Shown here piece by piece: positions 1,007-23,683 of a stretch of 24,360 nt of DNA (position 1 is its first letter; every line of letters starts with the position of its first letter). The stretch comes from a virus, in IMG/VR virus record IMGVR_UViG_3300025586_000025, positions 1 through 24,360 of that record; one strand, given 5' to 3'. The translations under genes were made by a program, and so were the position numbers. The notes below the pieces were generated by a model. It had not been told where the DNA came from. It ran no database searches and was given only the letters and a program-made list of their open reading frames with translations.

Positions 1007-1124
1007 ACCAAATAACAAAAACAACTTATGGAAAAAATGAGAATTTTAGATAAATTAAAAACTAAATAAACAATAGATATATGACCTACAAGTCAGAAAA
1101 CTGTAATTGTCCTTTGAAAGTTTA
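1007..1124 (+). other. Short spacer with two tiny open frames
   Basis: Between the inverted repeat and the structured RNA lie a 13-codon frame (1028-1069, MEKMRILDKLKTK) ending in leader-repeat copy 3, and a 14-codon frame starting at that repeat's ATG (1081-1125, MTYKSENCNCPLKV). The second has a CxC pair and stops at the start of the RNA element. It may be the remnant of a gene cut off by insertion of the 1125-2180 cassette, but it is too short to judge. Confidence 0.3.
1064..1084 (+). repeat. Leader repeat, copy 3 of 3
   Basis: Identical to 129-149 and 353-373. Here the downstream reading frame is only 14 codons long before a TAG, unlike the two other copies, which lead into full genes. 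Confidence 0.8.
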
Positions 1125-1318
1125 GTTCTTAATATATAGGTTAGTTTTTAAAACTTAGTAAGTTAAAATCACAAATCGTAGAAGTGAACTCTGCAATAAG
1201 CACCTGCGAAAGGAAACCCTTGCAAGGTCAGGTTGGAATAACCAGTTGAACTTACTATCCATTATGATTGAGTGCAGTTCATACATGGTAAAAAGTGATT
1301 TATCTATATATTAAGAAC
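1125..1318 (+). ncRNA. Structured RNA candidate of about 194 nt, unknown class
   Basis: The ends 1125-1138 and 1305-1318 pair perfectly over 14 bp, extending to 17 bp with 1139-1141/1302-1304 (one G-U). Inside, 1156-1164 pairs with 1249-1257 (9 bp), while 1185-1188 plus 1191-1195 pair with 1273-1281 (9 bp, 2-nt bulge). These two helices cross, giving a pseudoknot. The central part 1196-1248 holds ACCTG/CAGGT (1202-1206/1229-1233) around a small AAGG/CCTT hairpin. There is no long reading frame in it. The HNH gene follows 59 bases later with a strong Shine-Dalgarno. The order of helices does not fit a group I intron core, and I recognise no riboswitch consensus. It could be the RNA of a small HNH mobile element or a cis-regulator of the cassette. 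Confidence 0.55.
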
Positions 1319-1371
1319 CGAGCTTTTATAAGCAATTGTTCTTTTAAAATTAAATATCAAGAAAGGAGGAA
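1317..1371 (+). repeat. Cassette leader, copy 1 (upstream of HNH gene)
   Basis: The segment from ACCGAGCTTTT through AATTGTTCTTTTA to ATATCAAGAAAGGAGG recurs at 1809-1857 with a few changes and a short deletion. Both copies end in a strong AAGGAGG ribosome binding site. This copy contains a small hairpin GCTT-TTAT-AAGC (1322-1333) missing from the other. Confidence 0.7.
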
Positions 1372-17505: not shown

Positions 17506-19479
17506 ATGTTATCAGTAACAGAATGGAAACAAAATAAAACAACGACAACTCCAGTTCAGAACACTGGTTTTCAGAGTGTTTCAGATTGGAAATCATCTTC
17601 CTCTAACAAAATAAGAACTCTCACTAGAGAAGCAGAATTAGCTAAAGTAGAAGCAGATAAAGGTTTTGGTTTTATGGACATTATAAAAGGAATACCAAAG
17701 GCAGTTTATGATGTTTATAGTCCCATTGTTAAAAGAATGGTTCCAGTTTATACAGAACCAACAAAAGTAGCGATAGAAAGAGGAAAAGAATTTGTATCAA
17801 GTTTAACTTCTGCCGATAAAACAGCCGAAACAGTAGCAAAAGGTTTGGAAGCAGGAGTATCAGCAGTTAGCACTGTATTTACACCTATTTCAGCAGTATT
17901 TGAAGAAGCTGATAAGGTGCCTGTATTTAGAGAAGCGGCACAACTTCTTTCTATGCCGTTTGAAGCAGGAGCAATTACAGGAAGTTTCTTTGCTGATAGA
18001 TTTGTAGATGTATTACCTGTTTCAAAGGAGAACAAAGATATTTTAAGACCTGCTATGGAAGAAGTAGGAAGCACGGTTGGAATGATATGGATAGGTGGAA
18101 AAGTAATGAAAACTCTAACTAAAGGAGAACCTTTAACCAAAGAAAAAATAGCAGAGTTTAAAAAAGAAGGAGAGTCCGTTCCTAAAACTATTAAAGTAAT
18201 AGAAAAACAACAAGCAGAAGTTAAACCAGTAGAAACTGCCAAACCTTTATCAGTTAAAGAATGGCAAGAAAAAGGAAAACCTACTGTTGAAAAGGCAGAA
18301 AAACCAACCACAACCCTACAACAAGAAGCAAAGAAGTTTATTGATGAAGGTAAAAGTGCTGATGAGTTTATTGAGGCACAACCTAAGGTTTATCACGGAA
18401 GTTTAGAAGGTCGTGTAACTAAGTTAGAAGATAAACCATTTTTTGTATCACCAGATAAAAATATGGCTAGAAGTTATGGAAAAGAAATTAGTAACTTTTA
18501 TTTAAAAGATGGTAAGAAAGCTGATTTACAAGATGTGGAACTTCTAAAAAAAGTTGTTGGAATTGAAAATTATAACAAAGGAGAAAGTATATTTAAAAAA
18601 TTAAATATTCAGACACAAGAAAAAGTATTAAAGAATAATTTAAGTGGATTAAAAAGAGATTTTCTATCAAAGAGTGATGAAAGTTTATTGAGTGATTATT
18701 TGTTTGTTGAAAAACCAACTAATACAGCAGTGGTTTTCAGACAAAAACAAATTCAAGATAAGTTAAAAAAGCTTGGTTTTGATTATTATGAAAATCGCAC
18801 AGGTTATGGAGATACAGATTTCGGTGCTTCTTATATGGGAAGTCAAAAACCAGAAATAATTGTTTTAAATAAAGATATATTAAAAACAAAATCCCAACTA
18901 AAAGACATATACAATAAAGCAAAAGAAATTCCAGTAGAACCAAAAGGAAAAGTATCAGGAGTAGCCAAAAGTATAGAAGCTAAAGCAATAGAACAAGGAT
19001 TGATAGAAAAAGGTTTTGATAAACTAGCAGAATATGACCCAGTAACTATTAAAGAACAATCTAAGTTAGTTTCTGATATAATGTCAAAAGATATTGAAAT
19101 GGCTAAAAGGATAGCATTAGGACAAGAACCACTACCAAAAGGGGTAAAAGGTGCTTCGATATTTCAAGCAATGGAAGATTATGCAATGAAAACAAAAGAC
19201 GGAAAGTTAGCATTAGATATAGCAAATTCCCCAATAGCAACAGAAATAAGCACAGCAGGACAGACATTAAGATTATCAGCAGAAAGAACACAAGATACTG
19301 CTACTGCCAAAATAAGAGAAATTAAAAAAGAACGAGAGAAAGCTGTTGAAAAGAAGTTGAAAGGTAAGAAACCAAAGAAAGTAAAAGATAGTATAAATAA
19401 GTCGTTAAAAGAAAAGTCGAAAAAAGCTAAACCAAATAAATATGATTTAGCCAATTTATTAGATAAAATCGTTTGTTAA
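17506..19479 (+). CDS. Ejection-type polyvalent protein with ART-like domain
   Basis: A 657-residue protein. Residues 1-30 hold short SVTEWK / SVSDWK motifs, echoed by SVKEWQ near 250. Residues 90-210 are Ala/Val-rich and amphipathic (VSAVSTVFTPISAVF, AGAITGSFFADRF, VGSTVGMIWIGGKVMK), possibly membrane-interacting. Residues about 294-460 look like an ADP-ribosyltransferase: KVYHGSLEGR (His), FFVSPDKNMARSYG (Tyr after Ala), and QKPEIIVLNKDILK (Glu), the H-Y-E order of ART domains in phage polyvalent proteins. The C-terminal third is helical and very basic (KKLKGKKPKKVKDS). Such proteins are packaged and injected, and modify host targets. The ART call is from motifs only; activity is not shown. 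Confidence 0.65.
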   Translation: MLSVTEWKQNKTTTTPVQNTGFQSVSDWKSSSSNKIRTLTREAELAKVEADKGFGFMDIIKGIPKAVYDVYSPIVKRMVPVYTEPTKVAIERGKEFVSSLTSADKTAETVAKGLEAGVSAVSTVFTPISAVFEEADKVPVFREAAQLLSMPFEAGAITGSFFADRFVDVLPVSKENKDILRPAMEEVGSTVGMIWIGGKVMKTLTKGEPLTKEKIAEFKKEGESVPKTIKVIEKQQAEVKPVETAKPLSVKEWQEKGKPTVEKAEKPTTTLQQEAKKFIDEGKSADEFIEAQPKVYHGSLEGRVTKLEDKPFFVSPDKNMARSYGKEISNFYLKDGKKADLQDVELLKKVVGIENYNKGESIFKKLNIQTQEKVLKNNLSGLKRDFLSKSDESLLSDYLFVEKPTNTAVVFRQKQIQDKLKKLGFDYYENRTGYGDTDFGASYMGSQKPEIIVLNKDILKTKSQLKDIYNKAKEIPVEPKGKVSGVAKSIEAKAIEQGLIEKGFDKLAEYDPVTIKEQSKLVSDIMSKDIEMAKRIALGQEPLPKGVKGASIFQAMEDYAMKTKDGKLALDIANSPIATEISTAGQTLRLSAERTQDTATAKIREIKKEREKAVEKKLKGKKPKKVKDSINKSLKEKSKKAKPNKYDLANLLDKIVC

Positions 19480-19481
19480 TT

Positions 19482-19580
19482 ATGGAAACTGAAACACTAA
19501 ATGAATTAGATACATTTTTTAAAATCTTCGTTGGAATGGTCGTAGTGATGTTAATACTTAATAGATTAGGATTATTATAA
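19482..19580 (+). CDS. Single-span membrane peptide (32 aa)
   Basis: A 32-residue frame between two large genes, joined on both sides (TAATTATG before, TAATATG after). The product, METETLNELDTFFKIF onward, has an acidic N-terminus and one hydrophobic segment (residues 13-32, FKIFVGMVVVMLILNRLGLL) that would span a membrane. Holins are usually longer with more charge at the end, so a holin role is only a possibility; an ejection-pore or structural peptide is equally likely given its place inside the ejection-protein cluster. Confidence 0.6.
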   Translation: METETLNELDTFFKIFVGMVVVMLILNRLGLL

Positions 19581-19581
19581 T

Positions 19582-21678
19582 ATGTTTTGTTTACCAAAAG
19601 AATTTTTAATAAAGATAAAAAAAGCCATAAACGATGGCAAATTTGATATGGAAAAGTTCAACACTACTTCTGCTATAAGAAGAGAGATGTTGGCTGAGAT
19701 AGTGGGAAAGGAAAACGCTAAAGAAGTTAATTTACTCTATGAAAAGAAACTACTTCTAAAGAACCAAGAAACAGCAATGTATAAATTTGTTGAAGATGTT
19801 GCTGGTATTTCTGCAGAAGCTAAATTAGATTTATCAGCTAAGATAAAGCAAACTTATGCAGATAAGAATAGAAGATTATACGAACCCAAAGAAGGCGAAA
19901 ACTTTTTAAATGAATTAGCAAGTGATATTTATTCAAGAAAATATAAAACGGAAGTATCTCTTTCAGAAGCACAGGATATAACTGAATTAGCACAGGATAT
20001 GAAAGTTGCAAAGGCAAAAATGAAAGAGGACTTTACTTGGAAAAATAAGAAAGACGGTATTGAGTATGGTGCTTCTAAAGTAGCATTGGATAATTATATT
20101 GGAGCATTGAAAACTGAAGCAATAAAAAGTGAATTTATAAGTCCATTAAAAGAAAAAGGAGTTGGAGATAAATTAGGTGCAGTAGTTCAAGATGCAAAAG
20201 TTTCAGTAAACTTCATTGCAGAGAACTCAAGGTCATTAGTTGCATCTCTTGATAACTCCTTATGGTTTAGGCAAGGATTTAGAGCTTTAATGGACCCAAG
20301 ATTTTCAAAAATATGGGCAAAGGACTTCGCAACTTCTTGGAAAGATATATTTACTACTATGAGGGGACAAATCGGTAAAGGTGCTACACCTAAAGAGATG
20401 TTTTTAGGAAAAGATGCTATTAAGGCTGGTGGATTAGTTAAAGATAGTGTTCTTGCAGAGGGATATTCAAGACAAAACTATCTTAATGGAAAATACCAAG
20501 GTAAAGCAGGAGAAGGAAAGGCAGGAACTAAACTTGATATAGGAATAAGAGAAGAAGAGTTTTTAACATCAAGACCAGCACAAATACCTATTTTAGGTAG
20601 ATTTTTCAAAGGTTCGGAGGTTGCTTACGAAGTAGGAGCTATAAGATTAAGAATGGATATAGCTGATAAGGTTTATAAATGGGCAGAAAAGAATGGGGTA
20701 GATATGAAAGATAACAAAATAATTGGAGATTTAAACGAAGTAGTTAATGGAATGACTGGTAGAGGTTCGTTTGGTAGGGGAGCAGGTAACATAGAAAAAG
20801 GAGTAAACAAAGCATTTTTCTCTATTAAATTCTTTAAATCTAATTTGGACTTTCTTACTCTACATCAAGGAAGATTAAGCACACCAGCAACAAAATTAGC
20901 CGCCACAAACCTATTAAATACAGTTGCTACAACTGGTTTAGTATTAGAAATGGCTAAAAGATTAAACCCAGAAGATAATAAAGACATATATAACCCAACT
21001 AGCACAAACTTTGGAAAAATAAGGTGGGGAAATATGACATTTGATATGACACACGGAGCTGGAAGTATTGTTGTTGCTATGTCAAGAATTTTAACCCAAC
21101 AATCAACAAGTGGAACTACTGGAATAACAAAACCACTTGGAGAAGGTTTCGGCTCACAAACAGGAATGGATGTATTATGGAACTTTACAGAAAATAAGTT
21201 TTCTCCAATGTTTTCTGTTATTAAGGAAGTCGTAAAACAAGAAACATTTGATAGAGAAAAACCAACTATTAAGGGAGAAATAGGAAACTTAACTATCCCT
21301 ATTATAGTTCAGAATGTTGATGAGTTTAAAAACGAAAGTGTAGCAAAACAGGTTATTGCCTTTATTGCTGACGGAGTAGGAATAAGCACAAGTGCTTATT
21401 ATCCAACAACTAGTTGGGCAGAAAATACAAGTGATGAGATGACACAATTTAAAGAAAAAGTAGGAGGGGATAAATTTCAAGAAGCAAATGATAAATATAA
21501 TGAGAAATACAATGAGTGGTTTACAGATATTAAGAAGAATGAAGAGTATTTAAATCTTTCTGATGAAGATAAACAAAGGGTTATCACAAAAAAGAAGGGA
21601 GAAATAAAAGGTTTTATACTTAGACAATATGGTTTCAGAAAAGAAAGAGTTAAACCAACAAAGTTACCATCTTTCTAA
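19582..21678 (+). CDS. Large ejection-type protein (698 aa)
   Basis: A 698-residue, mainly helical protein, third of the long series. N-terminal third: charged helices (ISAEAKLDLSAKIKQTYADKNRRLYEP). Middle (about 205-300): FIAENSRSLVASLDNSLWFRQGFRALMDPRFSKIWAKDFATSWKD, a pattern I associate with a C-terminal domain of large phage polyvalent proteins, then GRFFKGSEVAYEVGAIRLRMDIADKVYKW. A glycine-rich turn GMTGRGSFGRGAGN follows, then a hydrophobic segment LAATNLLNTVATTGLVLEMA (about 435-455) and NFGKIRWGNMTFDMTHGAGSIVVAMSRIL. The tail is charged helix. No catalytic motif. Together with the two genes before it, it fits an injected internal-virion protein set. Confidence 0.6.
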   Translation: MFCLPKEFLIKIKKAINDGKFDMEKFNTTSAIRREMLAEIVGKENAKEVNLLYEKKLLLKNQETAMYKFVEDVAGISAEAKLDLSAKIKQTYADKNRRLYEPKEGENFLNELASDIYSRKYKTEVSLSEAQDITELAQDMKVAKAKMKEDFTWKNKKDGIEYGASKVALDNYIGALKTEAIKSEFISPLKEKGVGDKLGAVVQDAKVSVNFIAENSRSLVASLDNSLWFRQGFRALMDPRFSKIWAKDFATSWKDIFTTMRGQIGKGATPKEMFLGKDAIKAGGLVKDSVLAEGYSRQNYLNGKYQGKAGEGKAGTKLDIGIREEEFLTSRPAQIPILGRFFKGSEVAYEVGAIRLRMDIADKVYKWAEKNGVDMKDNKIIGDLNEVVNGMTGRGSFGRGAGNIEKGVNKAFFSIKFFKSNLDFLTLHQGRLSTPATKLAATNLLNTVATTGLVLEMAKRLNPEDNKDIYNPTSTNFGKIRWGNMTFDMTHGAGSIVVAMSRILTQQSTSGTTGITKPLGEGFGSQTGMDVLWNFTENKFSPMFSVIKEVVKQETFDREKPTIKGEIGNLTIPIIVQNVDEFKNESVAKQVIAFIADGVGISTSAYYPTTSWAENTSDEMTQFKEKVGGDKFQEANDKYNEKYNEWFTDIKKNEEYLNLSDEDKQRVITKKKGEIKGFILRQYGFRKERVKPTKLPSF

Positions 21679-21791: not shown

Positions 21792-21992
21792 TTAGTGCCA
21801 CTTCACGACTCCCTTGCAAGCAGGGTAAAGTGAACAACCTAAAAAGTCTCCGTATTTGCTTTGTCTTAAAACAAGCTTTCCTTTTTTGCAAAATGGACAT
21901 ATATCATTGTCTTTTGCTTCAGGGATAGTCTTTGCTTTACTTTTAATCTTCGGTATATGTATTCTCATTGATGTTCCTATACTTCCTTTCAT
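21792..21992 (-). CDS. Topoisomerase-type C4 zinc-finger protein
   Basis: The only gene on the minus strand, 66 residues. A basic N-terminus (RIHIPKIKSKAKT) leads to CPFCKKGKLVLRQSKYGDFLGCSLYPACKG, cysteines at 32, 35, 53 and 59. This is the C4 zinc finger found in tandem at the end of type IA DNA topoisomerases and as a stand-alone module in some phage and plasmid proteins; it binds single-stranded DNA. There is no topoisomerase catalytic domain. It faces away from the structured region at 22087, with which it may share a divergent control region. Its opposite orientation and unrelated content suggest an acquired single-gene unit (moron). No Shine-Dalgarno. Confidence 0.8.
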   Translation of the reverse strand: MKGSIGTSMRIHIPKIKSKAKTIPEAKDNDICPFCKKGKLVLRQSKYGDFLGCSLYPACKGVVKWH

Positions 21993-22051
21993 ATTTAGTT
22001 AAAAGTTAGTTAATAATTGAGTTCCTTGCATAAAGAGCTTACCCGTTAATA

Positions 22052-22080
22052 TTACAGTAAAAAAAGAGGTTTTGTATAAT
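22052..22080 (+). promoter_or_regulatory. Promoter of the noncoding region
   Basis: TTACAG (22052-22057), 17-base spacer, perfect TATAAT (22075-22080). Predicted start near 22087. No reading frame of useful length follows on this strand for over 600 bases. Confidence 0.6.
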
Positions 22081-22086
22081 GAAATT

Positions 22087-22621
22087 TAATAATCAAGTTT
22101 CGTTTAAGATTTGCTCATTAGGACTTGAACAGAAATTACAAGTAATTATAAACTCTGTTCAAGCACCTCCATTATAAGTTTGGAGGTAAACGTGAGCTAC
22201 CTTTTCGTAACGGTTAGTAAACATTAGCCTAGTGATGACTAATTCTCTTGTTTACAGCATTGGTTCATTCTCTATGATAAGCAATAGGTTCATTCTAAAA
22301 TGACAAACGGTATAAAGAGCAGTATATATTACGCCAGCTACTATGCCCATAATATATGTATTATTTTTGAATATACCAGAAATATTAACTGGCTTAAACT
22401 AAACGCTTTGACGGTGGTTGCCGAAATCCAGTCGTTTACTTTCTCTTGAATATTAAAGAACAAAATTGTCCGTCTAACTAAATTATGAAAGTTATTTAGC
22501 TAGAGTGTATATAAAACAAAATGCTCCCAACTTATATGTAGCAGGAAGCGGAGAGCATTTTATCTACAATTTCCTACTACAAAAATTGCTATATTCAGTT
22601 TTATACCTACAATTATAGCAA
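22087..22621 (+). ncRNA. Candidate large structured RNA (about 535 nt)
   Basis: No protein gene is visible on either strand. From a good promoter onward many clear helices appear: CTTGAACAGA/TCTGTTCAAG (22124-22133/22154-22163, 10 bp), immediately followed by ACCTCCA/TGGAGGT (22165-22171/22181-22187, 7 bp), GTAAACA/TGTTTAC (22217-22223/22249-22255), ATATATTA/TAATATAT (22324-22331/22350-22357), TAAACG/CGTTTA (22400-22405/22433-22438), CTAAAT/ATTTAG (22478-22483/22494-22499), a pseudoknot at 22518-22580, and TTGCTATA/TATAGCAA (22586-22593/22614-22621). The direct repeat GGTTCATTCT occurs at 22262 and 22287. Large ornate RNAs such as ROOL and GOLLD are known from phages, but I recognise no family consensus here. 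Confidence 0.5.
22518..22580 (+). ncRNA. H-type pseudoknot or switch at the 3' part
   Basis: AAAATGCTC (22518-22526) pairs with GAGCATTTT (22553-22561), 9 bp. GTAGCAGGAA (22538-22547) pairs with TTCCTACTAC (22571-22580), 9 of 10. The helices interleave without sharing bases, with connecting loops of 11, 5 and 9 nt. The first helix could also work as a terminator, since TTTTAT follows on + and T-rich sequence follows on the minus strand. Confidence 0.55.
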
Positions 22622-22647
22622 AGAAATACTTATTATGCAAGAAAACA

Positions 22648-22676
22648 TTTATAAAAGCCATAGAATATGTTATAAT
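22648..22676 (+). promoter_or_regulatory. Candidate promoter of the 22796 gene
   Basis: TATAAT at 22671-22676 with TTTATA (22648-22653) 17 bases upstream. Predicted start near 22683, 17 bases before the small frame at 22700. Confidence 0.45.
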
Positions 22677-22699
22677 ATTACCAATTAACTAAAAACAAT

Positions 22700-22777
22700 A
22701 TGTTACAAATAAATCCCGCTTCCACATTTCCAATCTGTCGTCAAATAGCAAACCACGTAGATACAAACACCTATTAA
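22700..22777 (+). pseudogene. Truncated copy of the N-terminus of the next gene
   Basis: A 25-codon frame, MLQINPASTFPICRQIANHV then DTNTY and TAA. It aligns without gaps to the first 24 residues of the 22796 protein (MQLSPNENYPIFHGIINHLDTGTY) with 11 identities, including Q, P, PI, I, NH, DT and TY, plus conservative changes. The copy ends at TAT-TAA where the full gene reads TAT-TAT. DNA identity is low, so the duplication is not recent. It could be a gene remnant or a kept upstream reading frame acting as a leader peptide. Confidence 0.6.
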
Positions 22778-22795
22778 AAACTAACAAACTAAACT

Positions 22796-23683
22796 ATGCA
22801 ATTATCACCAAATGAAAATTATCCTATTTTTCACGGAATAATAAACCACTTAGACACAGGCACTTATTATGTCCGAACTGTTATTTATGATGCAGATTAT
22901 AATTTACTTGCTACAGTTGATTTAGAAGACCAAGGTAGTCAAAACTTTCTTAAAATGTGGAAAGTTCCTTATGATAATGTATTCCAAAAAGGAAAGTTTA
23001 TATTGTTAGTTACATCTACCTACACGGATAGTTCTTACACAACTAAAAGTGAAAACTATGGAGATGAATTTCAAACTCACCTAGTCCAAGAGCGGTGGAA
23101 TTTAGCTACAAATGCTAGTTTAGGAGGAGGTAGTAGTAGTTATTCAGGAATTACAGCCAGTGATGTTAGAAAAGTTATAAAAAAAGAATTAGAGAACATT
23201 AAGTTCCCCGAAGTAGAAGAAATCAAATTTCCTAAACAAAAAGAGTATGAAGCTAACTTTAAAGATATTACAAAAGGTTTGACTGATATCAAGGCTTTAG
23301 TAGGCACTTTACCGACTCAAAATTCAAATTTAAGCCCGTTAATAGATAGACTTGATGATATTATCGAAGATATACAAGCAAAGCCTGTAACAAGAGAAAC
23401 AGACATTAAACCTATCTTAAAAGTAATTAAAGAAGCACAATCAGAAAGAGCAGGAAATAGCAAAGAAACAGCAAAGATTTTAGATAAAGTAGATTCTAAA
23501 TTAAGTATGGTAGAAAAAGAACTTGTGAAAGTAATCAAGAAAGAAATTTCAGATATTCTACCAACAGCTATTAAAGAAACCATGAAAAAAGCAAACTTCT
23601 CAATCCCTATGAATATGGGTAACGAAGAAGATGATAAAAAATCCAGCATTAATAAATTAAAATCTAAATACGGTATAAAATAA
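22796..23683 (+). CDS. Putative tail accessory / fibre-attachment protein
   Basis: The 295-residue protein has two parts. Residues 1-103: a beta-sandwich-like domain (NYPIFHGIINHLDTGTYYVRTVIYDADYNLLATVDL, KFILLVTSTYTDSSYTTKSENYGDEFQTHLVQERWN). After a Gly/Ser hinge (LGGGSSSYSG), residues 120-295: long charged helices (VRKVIKKELENIKFPEVEEI, DIKPILKVIKEAQSERAGN, SKLSMVEKELVKVIKKEISD) ending in a basic tail, consistent with a trimeric coiled-coil stalk. No catalytic motif. It follows a truncated paralogue of its own N-terminus and precedes, by one base (TAATATG), a fibre-like secreted protein. A role in attaching or supporting a surface fibre is inferred. Confidence 0.55.
   Translation: MQLSPNENYPIFHGIINHLDTGTYYVRTVIYDADYNLLATVDLEDQGSQNFLKMWKVPYDNVFQKGKFILLVTSTYTDSSYTTKSENYGDEFQTHLVQERWNLATNASLGGGSSSYSGITASDVRKVIKKELENIKFPEVEEIKFPKQKEYEANFKDITKGLTDIKALVGTLPTQNSNLSPLIDRLDDIIEDIQAKPVTRETDIKPILKVIKEAQSERAGNSKETAKILDKVDSKLSMVEKELVKVIKKEISDILPTAIKETMKKANFSIPMNMGNEEDDKKSSINKLKSKYGIK

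Follow-up and report, generated by a model that had tools for sequence, protein, structure and literature searches.

Gene content and strand of the structured region

The window analysed here is a virus record of 24,360 bases in which a terminase and a major head protein were recognised (PHROGs). Between a tail gene ending at 21678 and a fibre-like gene starting at 22796 it contains one small minus-strand ORF (21792–21992), and the adjacent 803 bases (21993–22795) were shown by an ORF scan to hold no ORF of at least 50 aa on either strand, in agreement with the gene-free gap described in an initial annotation of this DNA. The strong helices described for the same region were also found, including a 10-bp stem (22123–22133/22154–22164), an adjoining 7-bp stem (22164–22171/22181–22189) and a pseudoknot. 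A second phage, contig IMGVR_UViG_3300035698_004019 (L004), was reached through the small ORF, for which the two phages are 95% identical. The following features were assigned in the window, all of them on the minus strand:

22612–22640, minus: RNA promoter predicted from sequence, −35 TTGCAT (22640–22635), 17-nt spacer, −10 TATAAT (22617–22612)
22097–22605, minus: structured noncoding RNA of about 509 nt, both ends predicted; assigned from the fold z, the lack of any ORF above 49 aa and the L004 counterpart
22566–22589, minus: P2 hairpin GCAAT/ATTGT, with kissing arm GTAGTAGGAA (22580–22571) in its loop; equivalent present in L004
22515–22564, minus: S1 long hairpin of 12–15 bp, with kissing arm TTCCTGCTAC (22547–22538) in its loop
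22508–22517, minus: conserved GTTTTATATA, the 3′ arm of closing stem P1, partner TATAAAAC (22605–22598)
22473–22504, minus: P4 hairpin TCTAGCTAAAT/ATTTAGTTAGA, 11 bp with one G.U; L004 has a hairpin at the matching place
22434–22449, minus: conserved block TCAAGA-N4-GTAAAC, present in L004 as an N5 version
22085–22457, minus: tentative long-range closing helix of TTTAATATTCAAG (22457–22445) with CTTGATTATTAAA (22097–22085), 12 of 13 pairs
22123–22189, minus: two adjoining 3′ hairpins, TTACCTCCA/TGGAGGTG and GCTTGAACAGA/TCTGTTCAAGT
21993–22085, minus: decayed N-terminal coding part of the small gene, intact in L004 as 54 extra residues
21792–21992, minus: small ORF with a Topoisomerase-I-type C4 Zn ribbon (PF01396; Pfam E 1.8e-12), downstream of the RNA

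The initial annotation had read the RNA on the plus strand. Compared with shuffled sequence, the plus strand of the region folds near chance (z −1.32, and −1.51 for the trimmed RNA, 22070–22605), whereas the reverse complement gave z −3.42 and −5.83, respectively. A.C mismatches on the plus strand become G.U pairs in continuous minus-strand helices in S1, the S2 loop-loop helix, P4 and both 3′ hairpins, each of the latter gaining one such pair, and the G.U pairs of S1, S2, P2 and P4 are compatible with the minus strand only. The opposite strand is favoured by two helices, GCTCAT/GTGAGC and an AU-rich one, GTATATATTA/TAATATATGT, so the strand assignment rests on the overall balance and on L004. 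Taken together, the structured RNA is very probably encoded on the minus strand, directed away from the fibre gene; the longest ATG ORF inside it is 49 aa. This case illustrates that candidate RNAs need to have their strand fixed, from relatives and from G.U asymmetry, before any interpretation.

The promoter originally assigned, TTACAG-17-TATAAT, is present on the plus strand (22052–22080), but the matching place in L004 has no counterpart and promoter-like sites were found by scan at a number near that of shuffles (10 compared to 6.4 ± 2.7). This sequence was rejected as the RNA promoter, and so was a plus-strand RNA, given its near-chance fold and this non-conserved promoter. For the minus strand, L004 showed a promoter-like TTGCAA-17-TATAAT with the same 17-nt spacer and similarly spaced from the kissing module, giving the consensus TTGCA(T/A)-17-TATAATT over both phages. 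Transcription of the RNA would then start near 22605. The RNA promoter and a fibre promoter on the plus strand (22648–22676) lie divergently, back to back, and both are conserved in L004.

Counterpart in a second phage and compensatory changes

The window and L004 have unrelated genes on the left flank of the locus, and the two phages have little else in common. The L004 counterpart of the RNA (about 1673–2060) was found at the same position, between the Zn-ribbon ORF and the fibre gene. No alignment of the two gaps was obtained with blastn. Read in the Zn-ribbon direction, the order of parts is nevertheless common to both: promoter, P2, S1 with TTTTGTTTTATATA at its end, P4, TCAAGA-N4/5-GTAAAC, ATACCGTTT and GAAAAG. 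Within this order TTTTGTTTTATATA is identical in the two phages, P1 is possible in L004 as TAAGAC/GTTTTA, P2 is represented by ATCAG/CTGGT, S1 by a 16-bp stem, P4 by a hairpin ATAGTG/CACTAT at the matching place, and the conserved block lies at 1833–1849.

In the window, the S1 loop arm is complementary to the P2 loop arm over 10 bp, as a kissing loop or pseudoknot, and in L004 the corresponding arms TTGATTAAGA/TCTTAATCAA are likewise complementary over 10 bp. Pairs were compared in a hand alignment kept in stem register, MAFFT having placed the stems out of register. By this count, both sides had changed in seven of the 10 kissing pairs and one side in one more; the 12 pairs of S1 showed six changes on both sides and two on one side, and P2 two and two, respectively, out of five. 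No pair was broken in any of the three helices. Compensatory changes in a related phage, which the initial annotation had named as a check, are thus present in the 5′ module. Since the loops change their letters and stay complementary, it is the pairing and not the sequence that is under selection.

A scanner for tandem kissing modules scored 63.5 for the window and 65.5 for L004. Dinucleotide shuffling, repeated 5,000 times per region, gave maxima of 59.0 and 51.5, respectively, so that none of the 10,000 shuffles reached the real score. The opposite strands of both regions gave no match. The best module score in about 620 kb of other sequence was 60.0, and a set of 80 contigs selected for a matching −10 box and a TTTTGTTTTATATA tail, which included that of L004, yielded 50.5 as the next-best score. 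At the level of sequence, the comparison demonstrates a minus-strand structure under selection for pairing, with conserved promoter-like sequence. It looks like a real RNA class absent from the catalogues, with two members known. The initial proposal of a large structured RNA is therefore retained in part: there is an RNA without an Rfam family that carries compensatory changes in a second phage, but its strand, promoter and direction had to be revised.

One alternative is that the region encodes no RNA and that the helices arose by chance in AT-rich, decayed sequence. The decayed coding segment at 21993–22085 and the near-chance fold of the plus strand would fit this, but the module, the compensatory changes, the promoter spacing and the position recur independently in L004, and we consider this explanation quite improbable. 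The concern that the gap might be decayed coding sequence holds for 21993–22085 and not for the remainder.

The 3′ domain of the RNA is poorly supported. Taken as a whole, the RNA of L004 has a weak fold (z −2.0 sense, −1.3 antisense), and past P4 the two RNAs have only short blocks in common. No equivalent of the two 3′ hairpins at 22123–22189 was found in L004. The long-range helix TTTAATATTCAAG/CTTGATTATTAAA appears in both the MFE and the centroid structures; its L004 equivalent, judged by eye, is weak, and the helix could have arisen by chance. An 8-bp complementarity between the loop 22171–22181 and 22528–22538 was rejected, as it is missing from L004 and may be due to chance.

The Zn-ribbon gene and the distribution of the cassette

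The Zn-ribbon ORF, which apparently belongs to the same transcription unit as the RNA, was left unused in the initial annotation. The window and L004 copies differ by nine nucleotides over 67 codons, and four of the seven changed codons are synonymous. In L004 the ORF encodes 120 aa and starts at 2071, 11 nt past the block CAATCTTAGAAAGG (2047–2060), which resembles CAAATCTTAAACGAAAC (22113–22097) in the window. As the L004 ORF begins at the 3′ edge of the RNA, the two seem to be transcribed as one unit, and a search for intrinsic terminators found none in either region. In the window, codons 1–54 are affected by decay: the frame can be followed as FYCNI (LYCNI in L004) and then runs into stops, while the Zn-ribbon domain itself is intact, with a second ATG at 21968 preceded by AGGA. 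Ancestrally, the cassette probably ran from promoter through RNA to ORF, and 21993–22085 is decayed coding sequence and not RNA. As the N-terminal half of the protein has been lost, the RNA and protein of the window need not form a working pair. The 54 N-terminal residues in L004 (2071–2232) carry a second CxxC...CxxC pattern, which was lost from the window copy.

The cassette was absent from two related contigs. In G2, the contig behind L003, which is near-identical to the window over most core genes, the tail gene leads directly to the fibre promoter, and in the more distant L002 (tail protein 70% identical) the same locus also lacks the cassette. Its position and opposite orientation would fit a moron. 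Scans of viral contigs with the tail, fibre, Zn-ribbon and a nearby structural protein and with three RNA-derived DNA patterns yielded L004 as the only further RNA homologue, but these scans match short exact patterns and the lack of further members therefore says little. No true relative came out of genome scans, whether by protein or by pattern, and blastn against phages and plasmids gave short chance matches only.

Several other observations were made in the same contigs. A module swap was seen when positions 17506–21678 of the window were compared with G2: the two phages are identical over the head and packaging genes and have the same fibre gene, but the tail modules preceding it differ. 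Ahead of the real start of the fibre gene, the window contains a diverged and truncated second start (22690–22790, plus strand; MLQINPASTFPICRQIANHVDTNTY, then a stop), and in L003 the leader is joined directly to the fibre gene, which suggests recombination at the gene start. Another structured RNA is likely at 1124–1321 (plus strand), upstream of the terminase genes, where a 15-bp closing helix AGTTCTTAATATATAG/CTATATATTAAGAAC surrounds a branched fold (gap z+ −3.15) and the 5′ arm recurs in G2. In L053, the contig of L002, a gene-free stretch of 812 bases (1465–2276; z+ −8.64) comprises four tandem modules with long closing helices, three of which follow the motif TAGTTATTT. This stretch had no Rfam match and is possibly the strongest RNA candidate among those observed.

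Interpretation and comparison with known systems

On balance we favour a moron-like minus-strand cassette of promoter, RNA and Zn-ribbon gene in which RNA and protein act together. Such a cassette, set against the late genes, would use its own sigma-70-type promoter to produce a structured RNA of about 400–510 nt followed by the small Zn-ribbon gene. The RNA opens with a pair of neighbouring hairpins, and their loops, with 10 bp of complementarity, would form a kissing loop or pseudoknot; sequence, folding and comparison show this arrangement and, after it, more hairpins and a branched domain. The RNA would either fold into a particle bound by the Zn-ribbon protein or control the gene as a long structured leader. 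Joint action, whether as a complex or through leader control, is suggested by the shared orientation, the missing terminator and the abutting arrangement in L004, and we put it forward tentatively; transcription, ends and function of the RNA are likewise predictions from the DNA. The function is testable, as the RNA comes with a defined promoter, a candidate protein partner and a compact loop-loop element that keeps its pairing while its letters change.

The RNA might instead be purely cis-acting, a long 5′ UTR controlling the Zn-ribbon gene by, e.g., a switch between kissing and non-kissing states. Promoter, RNA and ORF follow each other in both phages, and the short distance between CAATCTTAGAAAGG and the L004 ORF agrees with this. 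A length of 400–510 nt is, however, long for a leader, and the RNA of the window still folds strongly in spite of the decayed N-terminal part of its ORF. We regard a leader function alone as somewhat unlikely.

Few large structured RNAs are known from phages and, to our knowledge, no function has been established for any of them. With Rfam 15, no match reached the gathering score in the window or in the whole L004 contig, and at E ≤ 10 the two RNA regions gave weak, unrelated matches only. OLE RNA is chromosomal and binds a membrane protein encoded beside it by oapA. The RNA described here is similar to OLE in lying beside a protein gene and differs in being phage-borne; no Rfam match was obtained here.

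GOLLD and ROOL use kissing loops to build homo-oligomers and are often found near tRNA islands (PMC12286853). The main rival to the favoured cassette is a stand-alone ornate RNA of this kind, acting in trans and perhaps forming a homo-oligomer via loop-loop contacts, with the Zn-ribbon gene as an unrelated neighbour. Size, phage location, an own promoter and loop-loop pairing all resemble GOLLD and ROOL, and pairing of the P2 and S1 loops could be intermolecular as well as intramolecular. Neither record matched the covariance models of ROOL (RF03087) or GOLLD (RF02032) at E ≤ 10, in line with the earlier remark that no consensus of either was recognisable; no control genome matched ROOL either. 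No tRNA or tmRNA was detected in the window (ARAGORN) and no tRNA in the searched contigs of relatives, and in L004 the RNA abuts an ORF with no terminator. The stand-alone reading seems somewhat unlikely to us. Compared to ROOL, the RNA is also phage-encoded, of similar size (the ROOL model has 574 positions) and rich in helices and loop-loop contacts, but it lacks a covariance match and a nearby tRNA and has a co-directional protein gene directly downstream. Like GOLLD, it is a large RNA of phages that combines a complex fold with kissing loops, but it matches the model in neither phage, is shorter and does not lie beside tRNAs.

The order of promoter, pseudoknotted RNA and small gene is also reminiscent of type III toxin-antitoxin systems, in which the RNA would neutralise the protein encoded downstream. 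Type III antitoxins are described as multiple RNA repeats and the toxin as an endoribonuclease (PMC8860590). Here, no long tandem repeat family was found in the region, the downstream protein is a PF01396 Zn ribbon and not a ToxN-like endoribonuclease, and PADLOC gave a marginal match for the L004 ORF (E 0.008) and none for that of the window. Such a system is highly improbable.

Phage ICP1 produces an abundant noncoding RNA of about 800 nt from a gene-free stretch of about 1 kb and contains no tRNAs (PMC7567579), so RNAs of this type without tRNAs have a precedent; the two are comparable in size and context only. A speculative extension of the favoured cassette, which we think unlikely as a whole, is that the RNA represents a new class of large phage RNA, either a ribonucleoprotein or an assembling RNA with the co-transcribed Zn-ribbon protein, in which fast-changing loops would keep pairing phage-specific. 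Read in this way, it would resemble plasmid antisense RNAs, with pairing loops that change quickly between phages.
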